Source of the DNA: Psychroflexus torquis ATCC 700755 | GTDB taxonomy: Bacteria > Bacteroidota > Bacteroidia > Flavobacteriales > Flavobacteriaceae | Reading direction: 5' to 3' | Length of the DNA stretch: 64,000 nucleotides | NCBI RefSeq assembly: GCF_000153485.2 | Contig: NC_018721.1 | Span: 1,674,001-1,738,000 of the forward strand | In this document: positions 11,236 through 28,511 of the stretch, one piece after another | Position numbering within the stretch: position 1 is the stretch's first letter | How the letters are laid out: every line of letters starts with the position of its first letter | Made by a program: the position numbers and the translations under genes | The notes under the pieces: generated by a model | Seen by the model: only the letters and a program-made list of their open reading frames with translations | The model's database searches: none | What the model was told of the DNA's origin: nothing

Positions 11236-11319
11236 TGCTCTCAATTTTTCATCAAAGATAACGATATGAAGGGTATAAGAAGACCTCTAAACAAATTCAT
11301 AATTTTGAATTTTTAACTG

Positions 11320-12120
11320 GATAAATGTCAGTTCGAGTGAATTTTGCTTTTGAAAAAAGTGAAATTTGTATCGAGAACTCTTTTTAGCTAATAACTTAAA
11401 ACTACTTCTCGATACAATTTTCTATCGAAAATCACTCGAAGTGACAACCTTGAGGCGTCAAATTTCTAGATACAAAGAAAAACGGCCTACTAAATTCAGC
11501 TGTAAAAATTGAAGCAAGAGCCTCGTGAAATTTTAGACTGTTTGAGGCTGTTTTTCAGCCGAGTTTCTAAAATTTAGAGGGTGAGCGATAATTTTAGGAA
11601 GAATTTTGTAAGCCTAGATTTTTTTGGTTCTCCCGAACCTTCGGGATTCATCAATGGAAAAAATGAATGAAAGTAATAATTTTATCTAAATCTTAAATAA
11701 AGAGTTACACTTTAAACCTAAATACATCAATTATAAAGATTCCGCATCGCAGCTATCGCCTTGCACGGAATGACAGAAATTTCTCAATAGTTAGAAAACG
11801 GCCTACTTTTAATGGAGGTTAGAAAACAAAAAAGTGGTGAAGAAAGGATGAAGGAGCAAAGCACTAGTGAAACGGTTTGCTTTGCGTGGAGGAAACGCTT
11901 TTGTAGTTTTCTAAGACATAAAAATAAGCCTAGATTTTTTTGGTTCTCCCGACACCTCGGGATTCATCAATGGAAAAAATGAATAGAAGTACTAATTCTA
12001 TCTAAAGCTTAAATAAGCAGTTACACTTTAAGCCTAAATACATTAATTCCATCTAAATCTTAAATAAAGAGTTACACCTAAAAAGATTCCGTGTCGCGGC
12101 TATCACCTTGCACGGAATGG
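11320..12120. repeat. Dispersed intergenic repeat block
   Basis: There is no gene here. It contains the TTCGAGTGAATTTTGCTTTT and CACTCGAAGTGACA modules, the CGGCCTACTAAATT block (11483), the AAATTTTAGA hairpin in diverged form (stem AGGCTGT / AGCCGAG) and the GATTCCGCATCGC tail twice (11738, 12082). It also holds a separate module, GGAGGTTAGAAAACAAAAAA, at 11814 that recurs at 15246. Confidence 0.85.
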
Positions 12121-12126
12121 GAGAAA

Positions 12127-20990: not shown

Positions 20991-21947
20991 AGAGGTCAGT
21001 AGTTAGTTACTTATTAATTCTGATTGATATATTTTGTCTCCTTCCACCATTTTGACAATTAGATTATTGAATATAGTTGCTTTACTCCGTGATCGATTTA
21101 TTCTAAAACAAAATTCACTGAAATATCTATTTAGATTATTATCACTTACCCAAGAATAGGTCGTTCTGATCCAAGATTTAACTTGATGTATCATTATATG
21201 GAGCGCTTTAAAATTCGATCCTCTGTTACTCTCAATCTGTGTTATGTCATAAGCTTTTGAAATGGGTCTATATCCTCTCCATTTATCTGTTGTGACCATC
21301 GCTTCTCTGCTAATATGATTGACAAAAATATATTGCAATGATCGGGCTGAAAAATCATCTATTTTCATAGCATACATCCTCTTTACCTTACCCTCCTTTG
21401 TAAGCTGGATGGCCGTTATCGCCTTCTTTTTCTTGCTATCATAGCTTCTTCCTGTTTTCCCTGCTTCTCGGCCCCCAAGGACAAACTCATCAACGTGAAC
21501 ATCGCCATCCATAGGGTTTTTCCCACTAGAAGCCATAGCCTCTCTGACTTTCAACATAAATAGTCGAGCAGTTTTTTCAGTCACACCATAACGCACACCC
21601 ATATAACTTGCTGATAAACTTTTAGTGCTAGTAGCCATTTCGAAGCAGATAAAAAATGCCTTTCTGACTCCAAACTTAACTTTGTGAAAAAGAGTGTTGG
21701 CAGTAGTAGATTCTATGTGCCCGCAGATGTTGCACTGCCTTGCAAAATCAGTACGAACTTGACAAGCAGTGTGATTACACCTGAGACATTTATATCGAAT
21801 TTCTGACTTCACTGAAGCTAAATATTTCTTGCAATCTTCGTCTGTTTTGAACCGATCAGAGAACTCTAAAAGATTTTGACCCTTAAATACGTCCATAATT
21901 ATATATATTTACTAACACTAAAATAGGTATTTATATACTTACCTCTA
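20991..21947 (-). mobile_element. IS1595-type element (second copy, intact transposase)
   Basis: The ends read TAGAGGTCAGTA (20991) and, as complement, TAGAGGTAAGTA (21947). They resemble the ends of the nested copy. No 8-base target duplication is visible (flanks TAAATTTA and CTATTTTA), so an end may have been rearranged after insertion. It sits between purU and the right copy of the duplicated leader. Confidence 0.75.
21003..21896 (-). CDS. IS1595-family (ISXO2-like) transposase
   Basis: An intact 297-residue transposase. The N-terminus has a zinc ribbon (CLRCNHTACQ, then CNICGHIEST) and a helix-turn-helix (SLSASYMGVRYGVTEKTAR). The DDE-type nuclease core shows VHVDEFVLGGREAGKTGRSY, VTTDKWRGYRP and HIMIHQVKSWIRTTYSWV. 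It is closely related to the broken copy at 19767-20660 and to remnants at 44596-45479, and it could mobilise them in trans. Confidence 0.88.
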   Translation of the reverse strand: MDVFKGQNLLEFSDRFKTDEDCKKYLASVKSEIRYKCLRCNHTACQVRTDFARQCNICGHIESTTANTLFHKVKFGVRKAFFICFEMATSTKSLSASYMGVRYGVTEKTARLFMLKVREAMASSGKNPMDGDVHVDEFVLGGREAGKTGRSYDSKKKKAITAIQLTKEGKVKRMYAMKIDDFSARSLQYIFVNHISREAMVTTDKWRGYRPISKAYDITQIESNRGSNFKALHIMIHQVKSWIRTTYSWVSDNNLNRYFSEFCFRINRSRSKATIFNNLIVKMVEGDKIYQSELISN

Positions 21948-21965
21948 CTATTTTAATTTCATATA

Positions 21966-22528
21966 AATAAATTTAATTATACTACGACGTGGCTCAGCAC
22001 AGGTTTTTTAATTGATTGAAATTAAAAATAATTAGAATAGTCTTAGTTACGGTAATTATTTTTGATAAAAAGCAAGCGAAAAAGAAACGATTTATTGCGT
22101 CATTATAGGTTTAATTTGGTATTACTTTGAATTTGAAATAATAAATTTTAAAACAAAAACCCATACAATATTAAAAACTGTAGGGTTTGAAGTTTGAGAA
22201 TCTTGAAAAGTATTTATTCTTTCTTTACAATCAATCTTTCCTTATGTCTAAATAAAACGGTGCTATCATTTTCAATAGGTTTATAAATGACCATTCCAGC
22301 TGCAATTTTATTATTATTTCCTATTTTCATTCCTGGAATTGTACAGGCATTTGTCCCGATTAAATTCCCATTTCCAATACTCGTATTACCAGAGATCGCT
22401 ACTTGTGGACTGATGAAATTATAATCTCCCATTTTCGTGTCATGCCCTATTGTACATCTTGAATTTAGCATGTTATAGGCACCTATTTCAGCTTTAGCAC
22501 CAACAGAAGCGTTATGAGAAATAACAGT
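21966..22528. repeat. Duplicated leader plus pglD 3' half, right copy
   Basis: Bases 21966-22119 repeat the UpxY leader (16640-16794), and bases 22120-22528 repeat the terminator and acetyltransferase end (17428-17841). In the right copy the two parts are directly joined, and the UpxY gene that separates them on the left is absent. The join lies near the shared word TTTAATTTGG / TTTAAATTTGG. Confidence 0.8.
22157..22188 (-). terminator. Terminator after pglD-type gene
   Basis: Minus-strand arms AAACCCTACA / TGTATGGGTTT (one bulge), followed by TTTTTGTTTT. It lies 26 bases past the stop of the acetyltransferase gene; same structure as at 17468-17501. Confidence 0.6.
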
Positions 22529-22864
22529 CGTAGGATGGATAACACACGAAGGTGATATTATAGCTGTGGGATGAATAAGTCCTCTAAATCTCGCACCCTC
22601 AGACACTAATGTTTCAATGATTTTTTTTCTATACTCTAAGTTTGCAATGCCCATTAGGTATTTGGCATTCTCTAGGACTTTGTGATCCTTAATCCCTCCC
22701 AAGTAAGGTTCTGAAAATCCATAATGTTCGTAGGTTGATTTGTCATCATCAATATAACCTATGACTTCAATGCGATCTGCTGGCCTTGCATTATTGTTAT
22801 GGTTAATATAGTCCCTTAATTCTGCGGCATGTCCACCTGAGCCTACAATGATTATTCTGTCCAT
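22214..22864 (-). CDS. PglD/NeuD-type sugar acyltransferase
   Basis: These trimeric enzymes transfer an acyl group (usually acetyl from acetyl-CoA) to a 4-amino or O position of a nucleotide sugar. The 216-residue protein has the N-terminal sugar-nucleotide domain (IIIVGSGGHAAELRDYI) and, from about residue 95, hexapeptide repeats (LIHPTAIISPSCVIHPTTVI... NTSIGNGNLIGTN). The His of NASVGAKAEIGAY lies in the expected region. It is the last intact gene of the acyl-sugar operon. Hairpin array 1 separates it from the ketoreductase upstream. Its 3' half is duplicated at 17527-17841. Confidence 0.88.
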   Translation of the reverse strand: MDRIIIVGSGGHAAELRDYINHNNNARPADRIEVIGYIDDDKSTYEHYGFSEPYLGGIKDHKVLENAKYLMGIANLEYRKKIIETLVSEGARFRGLIHPTAIISPSCVIHPTTVISHNASVGAKAEIGAYNMLNSRCTIGHDTKMGDYNFISPQVAISGNTSIGNGNLIGTNACTIPGMKIGNNNKIAAGMVIYKPIENDSTVLFRHKERLIVKKE

Positions 22865-22904: not shown

Positions 22905-23540
22905 TAGCAACGGGTAATTGGTTTAGGGTGAGCAAGCTCACTGGTTTAGTTGAAGACTACGTCTTCTGTTTAGAGCGAACGATTTTGCTAGTTTAGGAGT
23001 TGGTTTTGGAGCAAGCTCCTTGTTTAGTTAAGGACTACGTCCTCTGTTTAGAGCGAACGAGTTCGCTAGTTTACTTGTGCATTTTATTATTTAAATACTA
23101 GCCTATGGCTAAATTCATGAACCAACAAAGTAAGCTGTGCCTAAACAAGTAGCGCAAGCTACCTACTAAACTCCTAAACTAACAACGAAGACATGTTTAA
23201 ACAAACAACGCCAGTTGCTGACTAAACATTTTGCGATGGCAACGAGTAACTGATTTAGGAGTTTTGTCGTCAACAAGTTGGCTGTTGAGTTGAAGACTAC
23301 GTCTTCTGTTTAGAGCGGACTAGTTCGCTAGTTCAGGAGTTGATTTTGGGCGAACATTCTCTAAAGCGTAAGCTATACTAAACTCCTAAACCAACAACGA
23401 AGTTGTGCCTAAACAACTAACATAAGCTACTCACTAAACTCCTAAACTAAGAACTAAGATATGTCTAAACAAACAACGCTAGTTGCTAATTAAACAATTT
23501 ACGATAGCAAAACGCTAAACAAACAGCGCAGCTGTTAACT
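22905..23540 (-). repeat. Hairpin array 1 (intercistronic)
   Basis: No gene. A chain of short inverted repeats separated by the word GTTTAG, then, past a centre at about 23080-23140, by its complement CTAAAC. Perfect stems include GTGAGC/GCTCAC (22928), GAAGAC/GTCTTC around TAC (22952), GGAGC/GCTCC (23008), AGGAC/GTCCT around TAC (23031), AGCGAAC/GTTCGCT (23052) and GTAGC/GCTAC around GCAA (23149). The second half is more worn and the pattern restarts near 23250, suggesting one and a half units. It begins at the stop codon of the ketoreductase and ends about 40 bases before the pglD-type start. Confidence 0.9.
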
Positions 23541-23543
23541 AAA

Positions 23544-24299
23544 CTACTGCGCAGTATATCCACCATCCAGAACCATTTCAGTTCCAGTCACCCATCTTGA
23601 TGCATCAGAAAGCAAATAGGCGCAGGCATTAGCTACATCTTCTGGCTCACCAAAGCCTAGCGGATATTTGCTTAAAGTTAATTTTAGTAATTCTTCATTC
23701 TTTTTATAGGTTGCAGAGGCCGTCATCGGCGTATTTACGATTCCTGGTGCAACAGAGTTAACTCTAATTCCTTTTGCTGCCAATTCAATAGCCATAGATT
23801 TTACTCCAGCAGAGACAGCACCTTTACTAATAGCATAAAGTGTTTTTGCTTTTTCGCCATGTGTTGCCATGATAGAGCTTATAAAAACGATACTCCCCCC
23901 TGATTTACTCATCTTTTTAAGCATCAATTTGCTTAAATAAAACGCCGCATGAACATTGATTTTTAAAAGTCCCTCAAGTTTTTCTGGTTTAAACAATTTA
24001 AATGGGAAAGTAGATGTAACACCAGCAGCATTGACTAAACCATGAATTGCCCCTGTGCTTTCTAAAAAAGGTTTTAATACCTGTTCTAGAACTTCAAAAT
24101 CTGACAAGTCAACAACTAAAGATTTATGCGCACCCAAAGATAATTTGGATTTAACCTCTTCTAAACGCACCTCATTACGACCCAATAAAAGCAAAGTTGC
24201 GCCTAATTGATCACAAACAATCGCCGTTGCTTCACCAATTCCAGATGAAGCACCGCTGATTAAAATTGTTCGTCCTTTAAGTGTAAATGGGTTATTCAT
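23544..24299 (-). CDS. SDR-family ketoreductase (FabG-like)
   Basis: A 251-residue short-chain dehydrogenase. It shows the NADP-binding GASSGIG at residues 16-22, NAAG at 90-93, a catalytic Ser at about 142 (SSIMATHG) and YAISK with Tyr155 and Lys159, then PGIVNTPM. The family includes FabG, which reduces 3-oxoacyl-ACP to 3-hydroxyacyl-ACP. Its start overlaps the ketosynthase stop by four bases, and an acyl carrier protein gene comes before that, so reduction of an ACP-bound 3-oxoacyl chain is the likely job. The TAG stop directly adjoins hairpin array 1. Confidence 0.85.
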   Translation of the reverse strand: MNNPFTLKGRTILISGASSGIGEATAIVCDQLGATLLLLGRNEVRLEEVKSKLSLGAHKSLVVDLSDFEVLEQVLKPFLESTGAIHGLVNAAGVTSTFPFKLFKPEKLEGLLKINVHAAFYLSKLMLKKMSKSGGSIVFISSIMATHGEKAKTLYAISKGAVSAGVKSMAIELAAKGIRVNSVAPGIVNTPMTASATYKKNEELLKLTLSKYPLGFGEPEDVANACAYLLSDASRWVTGTEMVLDGGYTAQ

Positions 24300-25357
24300 T
24301 CAACTTCTATAATCTCTGAAATTTTTATATTACTTACAGGCAAACATGCTGATGCCCATGACATTCCTACGCCAAATCCACATAAAAATAGTTGTTTTTC
24401 ACCTTCCAACTTATGTCTCAGTTGATCGACAATAGTAATGGGTATAGATACAGAAGAGGTGTTACCATATTTAGCTATTGTTGAAGGAACTTTTATTACA
24501 TCTAATTTTAGTTTCTTAGCTAGGTAATCATTCATGAATTTATTGGCTTGATGAAAGATTAAATAATCAAAATCATCTATGCTTTTGTCTGCAAACTTTA
24601 AAGTCTCTTTAATGTTCTTGGGGATTTCTCTCAGCACAAAATTAAACACATCTGCACCATTCATATATCCATGCTCATCTGTCCGGATATTACCATGTTC
24701 ATCAACTACTTTTTCCTTAATTGTTTCAGCCGAACTCGGATTTCTGTAGCCACCAGCATCTATTTTTATCAGATCTGCTTTTGACCCATCAGAATTCAAT
24801 GAAAAATAACTTTCTCCTATTCCTGTCTGTTTTTCAATAATGGCAGCCACTGCAGCATCTCCAAAAATAAAACCAGTTTTTCTGTCTTTAGGATGATAAA
24901 CCTTGGAACGGGTTTCGCCATCCAATAAAAGCACTTTTCTTACGCCTGGCATTTGAGCATAAGCATAAGCAGTAGATAGACCGTATATAAAGCCTGAGCA
25001 GCCTAAACTAATGTCAAATGCCGCTGTAGATTTTGGTAAACCCAACCGATGTTGCAAATTTATAGAGGTTGCAGGCATTCTGTAATCAGGGGTTTGAGAA
25101 ACAAATAAAAGTATATCAATTTCAGATTTATCTATTTTCAAATCATCCATTAATTTCGTTGCAGCTGCAAAGCAAAGGTCTGAAGATGTCATGCCGTCTG
25201 GTGCAAAGCGCCTCTCTTCTACACCTGTTTTGTCAACAATCTCACCAACAGTATCTTTATCGAAATGGGCTGTATAGTTTCTATTCACTATGGTGTGCTT
25301 TGGCACAGCCCCCGACATCCCTAGTATGGATACATCCTTAAATTGTAAATTAGCCAT
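24296..25357 (-). CDS. 3-oxoacyl-ACP synthase III family protein (ketosynthase)
   Basis: A 353-residue FabH-like condensing enzyme. The catalytic triad is in place: Cys120 in SLGCSGFIYG, His269 in FHQAN and Asn299 in YGNTSS. FabH-type enzymes join an acyl-CoA or acyl-ACP with malonyl-ACP. An insert around DEHGNIRTDEHGYMNG (residues 219-234) is longer than in housekeeping FabH. The gene overlaps both the ACP gene upstream (8 bases) and the SDR gene downstream (4 bases), a tight three-gene unit for making a short 3-hydroxyacyl chain. Presence in a sugar locus argues against a role in bulk fatty-acid synthesis. Confidence 0.88.
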   Translation of the reverse strand: MANLQFKDVSILGMSGAVPKHTIVNRNYTAHFDKDTVGEIVDKTGVEERRFAPDGMTSSDLCFAAATKLMDDLKIDKSEIDILLFVSQTPDYRMPATSINLQHRLGLPKSTAAFDISLGCSGFIYGLSTAYAYAQMPGVRKVLLLDGETRSKVYHPKDRKTGFIFGDAAVAAIIEKQTGIGESYFSLNSDGSKADLIKIDAGGYRNPSSAETIKEKVVDEHGNIRTDEHGYMNGADVFNFVLREIPKNIKETLKFADKSIDDFDYLIFHQANKFMNDYLAKKLKLDVIKVPSTIAKYGNTSSVSIPITIVDQLRHKLEGEKQLFLCGFGVGMSWASACLPVSNIKISEIIEVE

Positions 25358-25586
25358 CAGCTTGAACTTTGGTTTGAACTTTATCGTATAAATCTTGAAC
25401 TGTGGTCATGTTCTCAAATTCATCATCACTAATTTCTATTTCAAAATGTTCATCGAGTAATGCAATAAGAGACAATCTAGACATAGAGTCCCAAGTGTCA
25501 AAATCTGACATAACATCACTCATTTCAACTTTGTCTTCTTCAATTTCTAAGGCTTCTTTAAATGCATTGAGGAATTTTTCTTTCAT
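25350..25586 (-). CDS. Acyl carrier protein
   Basis: A 78-residue acidic protein with the phosphopantetheine attachment motif DTWDSMSRLSL (Ser34), where ordinary AcpP has DSLD. It carries acyl intermediates as thioesters in the cytoplasm. Tight overlap with the ketosynthase gene shows it is dedicated to that enzyme. The non-standard residues around Ser34 resemble ACPs of specialised pathways (the DS-M form) more than housekeeping AcpP. Its leader (25587-25630) is followed upstream by hairpin array 2. Confidence 0.9.
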   Translation of the reverse strand: MKEKFLNAFKEALEIEEDKVEMSDVMSDFDTWDSMSRLSLIALLDEHFEIEISDDEFENMTTVQDLYDKVQTKVQADG

Positions 25587-25629
25587 AATCTAAGATTTAT
25601 AATTGTAAATTTAATGGTTTTTTTGGAGT

Positions 25630-26211
25630 TGAGTAGTTTGTGGTTTATTTAGTTGCAAATTCGTGTTTGCTGGTTTAGTTTGGGCAGCAAGCTACCTGTT
25701 TAATTGAGGACTGCGTCCTCTGTTTAGACGCAAACGAGTCCGCTGGTTTAGTTTGGGCAGCAAGCTGCCTGTTTAGTTGAAGACTTCGTCTTCTGTTTAG
25801 ACGCGAACTAGTTCGCTAGTTTAATTGTGTATTCAATTATTTTATTCTTTAACCATTAACCTGTGGCTAATTTCTCAAAAAAAAGTATAAAACACTTACT
25901 AAATTCATGAACCAACAGCATAATTTGTACCTAAACAAGTAGCGAAAGCTACTCACTAAACTCCTAAACCAACGACGAAACTGAGTCCAAAAAAGTAGCG
26001 AAAGCTACTCACTGAACTCCCAAACCGACAAAGTAAGTTGTGCCTAAACAAGTAGCGTAAGCTACTGACTAAACTCCTAAACTAACAACAAAACTGTGTC
26101 CAAACAAGTAGCGTAAGCTACTGACTAAACTTATAAACCAACAGCGTAAGCTGTGTCTAAACAAGCAACGCCAGTTGCTGACTAAACAATTTGCAGCAGC
26201 AAACCACTAAA
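25630..26211 (-). repeat. Hairpin array 2 (intercistronic)
   Basis: No gene. The first half uses GTTTAG spacers with stems such as GAGGAC/GTCCTC around TGC (25706), GGCAGC/GCTGCC (25756) and GAAGAC/GTCTTC around TTC (25779). The centre contains TAACCTGTGGCTAA (about 25858). The second half uses CTAAAC spacers with repeated stems GTAGC/GCTAC around GAAA (25939) and GTAA (26052, again near 26108). It begins at the stop codon of the four-helix-bundle gene and ends about 45 bases before the ACP start. Confidence 0.9.
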
Positions 26212-26571
26212 CTATATCCTTAAACTTTTCGTTAAGGCGTCCAACATGGCTAATATTTCATCGATTCTTACTCTGCTTTTTTGGAGGTCTTTGTTTTTGA
26301 TGTAACCTAATTCTTCAGCTATTAAAAGTTGGTTCAACACTTCAATCATTGAACTATAAGATATGATATAGAAACGTCTTTGGTCTTTTGGTGTTTTCCT
26401 CGAAGATCCTTCTGCAATATTTGAACTCACTGAGACACTTGCTCTTCTTAATTGTGAGACCAAACCATACTTTTCTTCTCTAGGGAATGCTTCAGTCAAT
26501 TTGTAGAGGTGAATTATCCATTGTTTAGATTTTTGCCACACTTTGAGCTTCTCGAAACTGTAGGTTTTCAT
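26212..26571 (-). CDS. Four-helix-bundle protein (S23 / 23S rRNA IVP type)
   Basis: A 119-residue, all-helical protein beginning MKTYSFEKLKVWQKSKQWII, with LVSQLRRASVSVSSNIAEGS in the middle; both are hallmarks of the S23/IVP (TIGR02436-like) family. Relatives are encoded in 23S rRNA intervening sequences of spirochaetes and, as bAvd, next to diversity-generating retroelements; they bind nucleic acid, but no catalytic role is known. Here there is no rRNA, reverse transcriptase or variable repeat. The gene fits exactly between hairpin arrays 2 and 3: its ATG is 6 bases from array 3 and its TAG begins array 2. A partner role with the hairpins is inference. Confidence 0.88.
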   Translation of the reverse strand: MKTYSFEKLKVWQKSKQWIIHLYKLTEAFPREEKYGLVSQLRRASVSVSSNIAEGSSRKTPKDQRRFYIISYSSMIEVLNQLLIAEELGYIKNKDLQKSRVRIDEILAMLDALTKSLRI

Positions 26572-26576
26572 TTATG

Positions 26577-26915
26577 TTGAGTTGGCAACAAGTTGCTGGT
26601 TTAGTTGAATACTTCGTCTTCTGTTTAGACGCGAACGGGTTCGCTAGTTTAGTTTGGGCAGCAAGCTGCCTGTTTAGTTGAAGACTGCGTCTTCTGTTTA
26701 GACGCGAACGGGTTCGCTAGTTTAATTGTGTATTCAATTATTTTATTCTTCAACCGCTAGCCTGTGGCTAATTTCTCAAAAAGGCAATATAAGACACTTA
26801 CTAAATTCATGAATCAGCAGCATAAGACACAAACTAAACTCCTAAACCAACAGCGAAGCTGTTAACCAAACAAGTAGCGTAAGCTACTGACTAAACAGTT
26901 TGCAGAAGCAAACCA
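26577..26915 (-). repeat. Hairpin array 3 (intercistronic)
   Basis: No gene. Stems GGCAAC/GTTGC (26584), GCGAAC/GTTCGC (26632 and 26704), GGCAGC/GCTGCC (26657) and GAAGAC/GTCTTC around TGC (26680) are separated by GTTTAG. The centre again contains CTAGCCTGTGGCTAA (26757). The second half has CTAAAC with AACAGC/GCTGTT (26849), GTAGC/GCTAC around GTAA (26873) and TTTGC/GCAAA (26899). It runs from the stop codon of the broken sugar transferase to the four-helix-bundle start. Confidence 0.9.
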
Positions 26916-27422
26916 CTAAACTTTAGTTCCAATAAAAGGCTTGGTCGTTGCTTGTCCTTTGGTATTGATACCTTCAGATTTTATAACTTTGAACACCGTG
27001 CTAAAAAGAATCTTTAGATCCAGAGCGAAGTTTTGGTGTTATACATACCAAACATCAAGATTAAATTTTTGTTCCCAAGAAATGGCGTTTCTACCATTGA
27101 TTTGTGCCCAGCCTGTAATTCCTGGTTTTACCAAATGCCTTTGCTTTTGAAAATCTGTATATAAGGGTAAATAATTCACCAATAATGGACGTGGCCCAAC
27201 TAAACTCATATCCCCTATGATGACATTTATCAATTGTGGAATTTCATCCAAAGACGTTTTCCGAATGAAACTTCCGATTCTAGTATTAATATTTTATTTG
27301 GAAATAAATTACCTTTAACATCTTTCATGGCCCTTAATTTAATCACTTTAAATAATCTATCGTTTTTTCCAATCCTAGAATCAAAACAAGGAGATCTATT
27401 AAAAAACCAACTAAATGTTTAA
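26916..27422 (-). pseudogene. Broken initiating sugar transferase (bacterial sugar transferase family)
   Basis: The pieces read RIGKNDRLFKVIKLRAMKD, then after a one-base shift [20 protein letters not shown] followed by [12 protein letters not shown]...[13 protein letters not shown], and after an in-frame TAA NFALDLKILFSTVFKVIK and GTKV. This is the C-terminal catalytic domain of a polyprenol-phosphate sugar-1-phosphate transferase (PglC/WcaJ type). It has one frameshift (near 27255), one nonsense codon (near 27038) and no N-terminal membrane helix: an IS1595-type element lies at 27431. A related intact gene at 31417-32013 presumably does the work now. Confidence 0.85.
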
Positions 27423-27430
27423 ATATTTTG

Positions 27431-28511
27431 GGCTCTAGTTTAGGTCTGCGTTGATATTAAGTTTTCATATCTAGATTCGATTTGATTATACCGTTTCAAT
27501 GTACCTAGAGCAATTGTTTCTTCCACAAAGGCGTTGGCTCTATCGCTTCTAGACTTTATATTTTCCTTTATTCGATACCAATTCATATATTGTTGTAGAT
27601 ATTTTGTTGATACTCCCCAAAAGGTATTTTCAATCCATTTTTTAACTCTATTGTGAGTAGAATTAACGTGTTGTATGTGATACTTTCCTTTTACTCTTTC
27701 TCCTTTTGATGCATTTACGATGTGGAACTCTGTTTCGCTATCTTTGGCAAACCCTTTATAACTGTGATGGGCATCGCTACACAATATGGTTATATCCTTT
27801 ATAACACGTTTACCGATAGCATTTTCTATATCTACTTTTCCTATTCGACCGAGTTTAGCCACGCTAAGGTCTAATGTTGATTTTCTATCCTGTGTTACAA
27901 TTACCGCAACTTGATCTTTACTTATACCTCTCTTTTTAGACTTACCGCCTCTTTTTCTTGATTCCCTATCTTTTACCTCCATACCTTTTTCTGATCTTAG
28001 GAAAAAGGTTTCGTCACTCTCTGTAATACCTGTAAAGTTGTCTTGGTCATCGTCATTTTTAGTATCGAATGAAGCTAATATCTTATGACGCCAATCAAAG
28101 GCTGTCTTTTTATTGATGCCTAATTCTGAACTTATTTTATCTAAACTTTTTTCTTGAACCATAAGACTTAAATAAGATGAAATCATATCCTTTCTTTGAA
28201 GTCCCGCCATCCAAGTGCCAGTATATTCAGTAAAGCTTCTATTGCAAGACTTGCACTTATAGCGCTGCGAGCCTTTGTCAACTCCAAAACGAACATATTT
28301 TTCATGTAAACAATGTGGGCATCCGCCCATTTTATTATCTAAAATATGGCGACGGGAAGCCCGCTCAACCAATTGATTATGCTCAAGTGAATCTGTAATA
28401 TCCTTTAACAGATTATCACGATCTAGAGTGGATAGTGATAGTATTTCCTCTTTTAGATTATCTATGTTCATAATCTAAATATACATATAATAGCTGTATT
28501 AAACTAGAGCC
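27431..28511 (-). mobile_element. IS1595-family element with zinc-ribbon transposase
   Basis: A 1081-bp element with 12-base inverted repeats GGCTCTAGTTTA (27431-27442) and its complement (28500-28511). The exact 8-base target duplication ATATTTTG lies at 27423-27430 and 28512-28519. It is not closely related to the other IS1595-type copies in the window. Confidence 0.93.
27440..28471 (-). CDS. IS1595-family transposase
   Basis: An intact 343-residue transposase. It has an N-terminal zinc ribbon (CPHCLHEKYVRFG, then YKCKSCNRSF), a helix-turn-helix (KISSELGINKKTAFDWRHK) and an ISXO2-like catalytic domain (ITESDETFFLRSEKG, ILCSDAHHSYKGF, HVNSTHNRVKKWIENTFWG). It belongs to the longer IS1595 subgroup. 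Downstream it ends nine bases from the element's left repeat. Confidence 0.9.
   Translation of the reverse strand: MNIDNLKEEILSLSTLDRDNLLKDITDSLEHNQLVERASRRHILDNKMGGCPHCLHEKYVRFGVDKGSQRYKCKSCNRSFTEYTGTWMAGLQRKDMISSYLSLMVQEKSLDKISSELGINKKTAFDWRHKILASFDTKNDDDQDNFTGITESDETFFLRSEKGMEVKDRESRKRGGKSKKRGISKDQVAVIVTQDRKSTLDLSVAKLGRIGKVDIENAIGKRVIKDITILCSDAHHSYKGFAKDSETEFHIVNASKGERVKGKYHIQHVNSTHNRVKKWIENTFWGVSTKYLQQYMNWYRIKENIKSRSDRANAFVEETIALGTLKRYNQIESRYENLISTQT

Follow-up and report, generated by a model that had tools for sequence, protein, structure and literature searches.

The closest described relatives of the structures analysed here are the intervening sequences (IVSs) of 23S rRNA genes in Coxiella and Leptospira, in which an open reading frame (ORF) of the protein family PF05635 is bordered by complementary ends. 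According to the part of one account that was consulted (PMC4990558), the IVS of Coxiella combines a terminal stem of 28 bp with GACAGAT heptamers in tandem directly ahead of the ORF, the S23/IVP proteins are credited with no known function, and a crystallised Xanthomonas relative is a homopentamer. A gene of this four-helix-bundle (fhb) family has also been placed between guanylate kinase and adenylyltransferase genes in a predicted phage region of two Flavobacterium columnare strains, in a report whose consulted part carries no comment on repeats (PMC5524665). Here we examined a window of 64,000 nt from Psychroflexus torquis ATCC 700755 (contig NC_018721.1, positions 1,674,001 to 1,738,000), in which one operon holds an fhb gene and three intercistronic arrays (A1, A2, and A3) of the word GTTTAG and its reverse complement CTAAAC. 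The three arrays are a true and unusual structure, local in its hairpin form and general in its principle. We consider it probable that they are copies of a palindromic word-array element (W...W', a word and its reverse complement) of the fhb family, whose proteins probably recognise the word.

Direct reading of the coding (minus) strand shows in each array a run of GTTTAG words, a centre, and a run of CTAAAC words. The centre ATTAGCCACAGG...AATAAAATAATTGAATACACAATT is conserved between A3 and A2 and is still recognisable in A1. Exact GTTTAG and CTAAAC words number 9 in A3, 15 in A2, and 19 in A1, while 500 Markov shuffles of each array gave means of 0.46, 1.09, and 1.14 and maxima of 4, 5, and 5, respectively. 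Successive exact words of the same orientation delimit 23 segments of 8–40 nt, 21 of which are 17–19 nt long; 20 of the 23 can form a stem of 4–7 bp with G:U pairs allowed (for example GTAGCTTACGCTAC) and the remaining three form only 3 bp. The stems vary from unit to unit and the word stays constant across the arrays. RNA folding against shuffles gave z values of -3.1 for A3 (1 of 100 shuffles was equally good), -6.5 for A2, and -7.9 for A1. Since most of A3 aligns to A2 at 80% identity and to A1 at 74%, the three arrays are copies of one another and not mere look-alikes; a 199-nt half common to A2 and A3 is 89% identical. Word counts, segment lengths, stems, identities, and folding scores together make the array observation sound and not a matter of chance.

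A preliminary description made from the letters alone had claimed three paralogous chains of GTTTAG hairpins that switch to CTAAAC past a shared centre, each starting at an upstream stop codon within one operon, and on all these points it agrees with the counts, stems, and alignments above. The first word overlaps the stop in all three cases: the first GTTTAG of A3 ends in the TAG stop of a sugar-transferase remnant frame, and in A2 and A1 the first GTTTAG opens with the last letter of a TAG stop, that of the fhb gene and of a ketoreductase gene, respectively. The arrays, with their ends as set here, stop about 8 to 41 nt ahead of the next start codon, close as had been said and not at the 6–45 given. 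The statement that each array is one large inverted structure fits A3 and A2 only, A1 being a double unit (W-W'-W-centre-W'). The description had also set the arrays apart from CRISPR (clustered regularly interspaced short palindromic repeats), rightly so: in place of constant repeats with unique spacers there is a constant part of only 6 nt, the units are mostly hairpins, and the arrays are copies of each other. On reading, the plan also differs from that of integron attC sites (an integron integrase was not searched for). Rfam returned no family above its gathering threshold, the single match (E 0.75) being at chance level and outside the arrays.

The fhb protein of the window scores 122 bits against PF05635 (cut-off 33.8) and 118.3 bits against TIGR02436 (cut-off 24), which makes it a member of the protein family of the 23S IVSs. 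It also weakly resembles Avd of diversity-generating retroelements, a related four-helix-bundle family, at E 4.5e-6 and 26.9 bits with the NCBIfam model DivGenRetAVD, under the cut-off of 80. The likeness of PF05635 and Avd has been noted before, in the part consulted of PMC10053308. A profile of 30 fhb proteins found PDB entries 2gsc and 2rld as relatives, and PADLOC gave no match for the two fhb proteins submitted. The P. torquis genome contains four further full fhb genes and one sub-cut-off match with stops. Three of the four lie in tracts of a different short word each (TAACTCGATAACACCATAAC; GAGAATAGAACAAAGA; GAATGCTGAATAACGAATGC) and the fourth has only short A/T-rich spacers. The sub-cut-off match (locus L037, G000:C1:3834791-3834973) has three in-frame stops and lies in a long spacer, between neighbours that, by reading only, look like thiolase and acyl-CoA dehydrogenase genes, a junction that bears fhb in 10 of 20 loci elsewhere (see below).

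We compared the spacers around fhb genes in two sets of loci. The first set of 85 loci consists of 60 loci from 29 family genomes, 20 genus stretches (six picked because their fhb looked split), and five loci of the P. torquis genome; the 60 family loci follow the search rows by E-value, with omission of those with internal stops, near contig ends, or inside a stretch already taken. The set holds 95 fhb ORFs, 92 with both neighbours and 80 testable (both spacers at least 25 nt). The score was a Smith-Waterman z of the upstream spacer against the reverse complement of the downstream spacer, with other genes of the same loci as controls. Many of these loci have an upstream spacer composed of a word W and a downstream spacer composed of its reverse complement W'. 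The inverted match exceeds z 3 in 39 of 80 fhb genes (median 2.90) versus 9 of 162 controls (median 0.02; p 9e-22), and removal of the window and one fhb fragment leaves 39 of 78 (median 3.03; p 2e-22). The mean inverted score was 25.9 with the true downstream partners and 14.2 with partners swapped between loci, where none of 20 permutations exceeded 15.2. Repeated 8-mers above 0.2 occur in 33 of 80 fhb-adjacent spacers and in 22 of 215 other co-directional spacers.

For the independent set, named genomes were scanned with seven aligned fhb proteins as the sole query. It comprises the best 80 of 581 confirmed stretches; these contain 86 fhb ORFs, of which 77 have both neighbours and 58 are testable. 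Here the inverted match exceeds z 3 in 44 of 58 fhb genes (median 5.17) versus 4 of 68 control genes (p 9e-17), and direct similarity is not raised (p 0.21). The loci above z 3 come from Bacteroidota, Acidobacteria, Geobacter, Nitrospirae, Patescibacteria, clostridial bins (Clostridia), Thiohalocapsa, and others, many of them metagenome-assembled genomes whose labels may be wrong.

Inverted words on either side of a gene could be kept for pairing in the operon mRNA. It might be argued that the W/W' stems are maintained for RNA folding, that they serve to separate, insulate, or attenuate the genes by way of RNase III or translation coupling, and that the fhb protein is an RNA-binding autoregulator, with any mobility incidental. 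The arrays do fold better than shuffles, the RNA duplexes of upstream with downstream spacers average -33.8 versus -22.0 kcal/mol for shuffled ones (n 138; p 3e-23), RNase III cleaves the stems of 23S IVSs that carry an S23p ORF (PMC4990558, consulted part), and fhb is in sense orientation in 86 of 92 cases. However, selection for pairing predicts more G:U than A:C mismatches on the sense strand, and the reverse was counted, 105 versus 148 (p 0.008; 87 of the 138 loci used). Neither are sense duplexes stronger than antisense ones (55 versus 82 loci; p 0.14). Both results argue against selection for sense-RNA pairing, although mutation bias may contribute to them, and DNA-level inverted repeats are slightly favoured. 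RNA-level function alone would also leave unexplained why the word follows the protein across operons (see below). We regard this explanation as rather unlikely, and the insulation or attenuation of expression offered in the preliminary description gained no support from the tests designed to tell RNA-level from DNA-level pairing. The 86 fhb genes that are co-directional with both neighbours contrast with 273 of 396 control genes; this near-constant sense orientation is compatible with selection against insertions in antisense and also with a route through RNA.

Next, the upstream spacers of fhb genes from different operons were compared in pairs that have no direct neighbour of homologous kind; these pairs share members and are not independent. 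The upstream words match at z>3 in 10 of 16 pairs at protein identity of at least 70%, in 11 of 38 at 60–70%, and in 14 of 112 at 50–60%, while in the three classes under 50% the counts are 0, 6, and 6 of 150 sampled pairs per class (12/450). Related fhb proteins thus tend towards a common word even across different operons. This association predicts GTTTA-like words beside the relatives of the window fhb. We fetched the 29 nearest (49–58% identity) and compared them with 166 other fhb genes: at least two GTTTA occur upstream in 20 of 29 relatives versus 4 of 166 others. Downstream, with the stop codon excluded, at least two TAAAC occur in 10 of 29 versus 5 of 166, and at least one in 19 of 29 versus 28 of 166. 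In 20 of the 29 relatives the TAA stop codon of fhb itself opens a TAAAC. Locus L303 carries GTTTAGGAGTTTAG, as in the window, and L126, whose fhb is 48% identical, shows GTTTAG upstream of the gene and CTAAAC words to either side of it.

A neutral origin, by which slippage and template-switch foldback build inverted word arrays at operon junctions and fhb merely hitchhikes, would account for words that are degenerate and variable in copy number, and for word tracts that exist without fhb, including the 22 of 215 other co-directional spacers with repeat excess above 0.2. It sits poorly with the rarity of inverted matches around control genes of the same loci (9/162 and 4/68 in the two sets) and with the shared words of related fhb genes in different operons, for which the GTTTA prediction held. 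We find this origin improbable.

We also observed units that lack an fhb gene. Spacers not beside fhb match the word of the fhb of their own locus (z>3) in 18 of 243 co-directional cases, whereas a null with a random other locus gave 3 of 243. In three of the 18 (two in L186, one in L190) the spacer includes fragments of an fhb that is interrupted or decayed, and the strongest match of all is A1 of the window. Junction turnover could be followed in a fadB-fadA-acyl-CoA dehydrogenase operon identified in L097. At the fadB/fadA junction, 15 of 20 loci have fhb, one has a RAYT-like gene (REP-associated tyrosine transposase; REP, repetitive extragenic palindrome), and four have neither; three of these four spacers (L120, L129, L143) bear the same word as the fhb of the second junction. 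At the fadA/acyl-CoA dehydrogenase junction fhb is present in 10 of 20 loci and absent in 10, where the gaps measure 5 to 271 nt. The median identity of fhb proteins at the same junction is 54% (174 pairs) and that of the flanking proteins 79%. The fhb of L035, in the P. torquis genome, shares 23% identity with the same-junction fhb of L148 and 57% with an fhb of a different operon. The junction data fit best with inheritance in place and occasional replacement.

Four genus genomes share an interruption of an fhb gene at one position (the N^IAEG region; L186:7074-7357, L187:1055-1338, L188:4953-5236, and L191:4498-4781). The interrupting element has a constant size of 284 bp, measured from outer end to outer end of its 11-bp inverted repeat CCTGTGAAATA/TATTTCACAGG, whose arms differ at no more than one position. 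An ORF of 87–91 aa was listed in three of the four cases, those of L188 and L191 matching GIY-YIG (PF01541) at 1.2e-16 and 6e-18, and remnants are seen in L189 and L190. It resembles a homing element that has fhb genes as its special target.

The RAYT-like gene at the fadB/fadA junction belongs to locus L136 (3119-3673), where it lies between hairpins such as GGCGCAA..TTGCGCC and scores 53.7 bits with NCBIfam REP_Tyr_transpos (cut-off 80), with no Pfam match. Its presence where most loci have fhb suggests that this junction is a shared landing site. REPs and bacterial interspersed mosaic elements (BIMEs) are likewise intergenic, short hairpins with guide words in inverted pairing, and the hairpins of the window might be REPs moved by such an IS200-like transposase and arranged as BIMEs. 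Besides this resemblance and the L136 gene with its own hairpins, the P. torquis genome has 13 Y1_Tnp matches. Eight of the 13 loci were examined with about 1.5 kb on each side, and in these no GTTTAG/CTAAAC word runs and no window-like hairpin series were found. The arrays were found in this operon only, adjoining fhb, and their stems differ while the constant word is that of the fhb subfamily. A RAYT/REP origin is highly improbable and was rejected, the eight fetched loci being without matching repeats and no Y1 transposase being found linked to the arrays, in line with the earlier statement that these are not ordinary REPs. Four Y1_Tnp matches lie within 9 kb at G000:C1:3303353-3311887, with the hairpin CGAGCGAGACGCTCG on both sides of one of them (L008).

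The reach of the hairpin form is narrow. Within the 4.32-Mb P. torquis genome, A3 DNA and the triple-GTTTAG pattern match nowhere beyond this operon. A search of 26 other genus genomes with array DNA gave matches in three of them, all inside the fhb gene and none in arrays. The triple-GTTTAG pattern itself is present in 62 of 397 family genomes, P. torquis included, and 30 loci from other genomes, among the matches listed, were fetched. A loose stem test with G:U allowed passes 10 of these 30, mostly simple tracts that pair with themselves, e.g., GTTTAGAGTTTAGAG; a strict test is reported below. The absence of strict hairpins from the 30 loci and of array DNA from the genus genomes searched makes the hairpin form look private to this lineage. 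Of the possibility that the arrays are strain-specific noise with no conserved stems in relatives, half is thus borne out: the hairpins were seen in this genome only, and the word plan beneath them is widespread.

Compared with the described systems, the arrays look like kin of the 23S IVSs, a variant of IVS-like fhb elements that we found described only inside 23S rRNA. The borders are complementary here as well (39/78 and 44/58 fhb genes at z>3, and palindromic arrays on both sides of fhb in the window). The location is different, the window neighbours being protein-coding, and none of 160 other loci has at least two of four 23S motifs, which were used with no positive control. Unlike the IVSs, the fhb elements lie in protein-coding operons behind stop codons, have subfamily-specific word repeats, and have fhb-less spacers with the same word, to which the window adds hairpins between words. 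Given this IVS-like anatomy, fhb elements may act in an mRNA as an IVS does. They also recall non-autonomous elements of the miniature inverted-repeat transposable element (MITE) type, in that gene-less copies share end sequences with a gene-bearing relative; no transposase is known for them, however, and their ends are word arrays and not fixed terminal repeats. The arrays also differ from REP/BIME systems in having no linked Y1 transposase found, one operon only, diverse stems, and a word that goes with fhb. The preliminary description knew of no element with this plan, which agrees with the Rfam result and overlooks this apparent kinship; it treated the four-helix-bundle protein as a mere neighbour, and the protein does adjoin the arrays but looks like the key to them, since fhb genes often lie between inverted word arrays.

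On our best reading the arrays would be intercistronic relatives of the 23S IVSs, mobile or once mobile, and specifically fhb-less copies elaborated with hairpins. Members of this family have an fhb gene at an operon junction, placed after the stop codon of one gene and often with W repeats upstream and W' downstream, as the comparison of loci shows. Word and fhb subfamily tend to go together, so the fhb protein, whose crystallised Xanthomonas relative is a homopentamer, probably recognises its word in DNA or RNA. Spacers without fhb that bear the word of the operon's fhb at other junctions were probably copied or moved with the help of the fhb protein. In the window, an fhb of the GTTTAG subfamily adjoins W...W' units, and these would have spread to three junctions, with a hairpin added between one word and the next. 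Once transcribed, each unit may form stem-loops in the mRNA that RNase III can cut, as in 23S IVSs, and this would make the insertion tolerable to the operon. The mobile hairpin family suggested earlier would thus survive as kin of the fhb/IVS elements, its mobility a matter of inference.

Several observations weigh against this reading. The inverted match does not exceed z 3 in 39 of 78 fhb genes of the first set and 14 of 58 of the independent set. Direct upstream-downstream matches are slightly raised in the first set (20/78 versus 15/162; p 0.03), as would be expected from window-like loci holding W and W' in one spacer (L127 and L187 by reading). Self-inversion is not enriched beside fhb (z>3 in 10/80 versus 25/215 other co-directional spacers; p 0.44), which makes the W...W' spacer beside the window fhb a minority layout. 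The four fhb-less fadB/fadA spacers show W...W' by eye, yet as single self-inversions they are weak (z 2.8, 1.0, 2.1, and 1.6, the last being L117). In 42 of 52 cases an fhb has its nearest relative at its own junction and in 10 of 52, L035 among them, elsewhere, so inheritance in place is the rule. No insertion was seen between near-identical strains, and no target duplication or integrase was found. In the strict stem test (Watson-Crick, at least 5 bp, two G/C), 0 of the 30 other-genome loci pass in either segment, whereas 5 of 9 window triples pass in both. An fhb gene lies within the roughly 3 kb examined at only one of those 30 loci, so word tracts also exist without fhb. We know of no catalytic activity of fhb proteins.

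We lean, if only narrowly, towards a wider view in which these elements would form a mobile intercistronic class of many phyla, a protein of about 120 aa with a four-helix bundle lying between inverted arrays of a specifically recognised word and accompanied by non-autonomous fhb-less units. The 23S IVSs would be the branch that entered rRNA, and the window a lineage whose fhb-less units grew into hairpin arrays filling one operon. In the open-access literature we found no description of inverted word arrays around fhb genes, which is weak evidence of novelty. That fhb subfamilies tend to have their own flanking word leads directly to the hypothesis of word-specific nucleic-acid recognition. 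Such recognition would explain many degenerate word tracts between operon genes, and natural protein-word pairs would be a source for reading a recognition code. Should the elements prove mobile, they would be very small and would spare the genes around them by inserting directly after stop codons.

The minus-strand operon runs from the sugar-transferase remnant through A3, fhb, A2, the acyl carrier protein, a KAS III-like synthase, the ketoreductase, and A1 to a PglD-like acyltransferase. Table 1 gives the coordinates.

Table 1. Features of the array-bearing operon (positions in the window).
Feature	Position	Strand	Basis
Sugar-transferase remnant; frame end runs into first A3 word	26916..27400	-	named by reading; no intact ORF listed
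Array A3: GTTTAG-hairpin words, centre, CTAAAC-hairpin words; sugar-transferase remnant/fhb spacer	26580..26921	-	sequence, fold z
Centre of A3, kept in A2	26724..26772	-	sequence
fhb gene, 119 aa; Pfam PF05635 23S_rRNA_IVP, NCBIfam TIGR02436 four helix bundle protein	26212..26571	-	profile search
Array A2: fhb/acyl carrier protein spacer; first word overlaps fhb stop codon	25628..26212	-	sequence, fold z
Centre of A2	25824..25872	-	sequence
Acyl carrier protein (PP-binding)	25350..25586	-	profile search (as 25362-25586)
KAS III-like synthase	24296..25357	-	profile search
Short-chain dehydrogenase / ketoreductase; TAG stop overlapped by first A1 word	23544..24299	-	profile search, sequence
Array A1: double unit (W-W'-W-centre-W'); ketoreductase/PglD-like acyltransferase spacer	22905..23544	-	sequence, fold z
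PglD-like hexapeptide acyltransferase, next operon gene	22214..22864	-	profile search

Elsewhere in the window, positions 11236-12126 form a long repeat-marked spacer (8-mer excess 0.34) with no adjoining fhb gene. The array-bearing segment itself is flanked by two IS1595-type (DDE_Tnp_IS1595) transposase genes, at 21003-21896 and 27440-28471.

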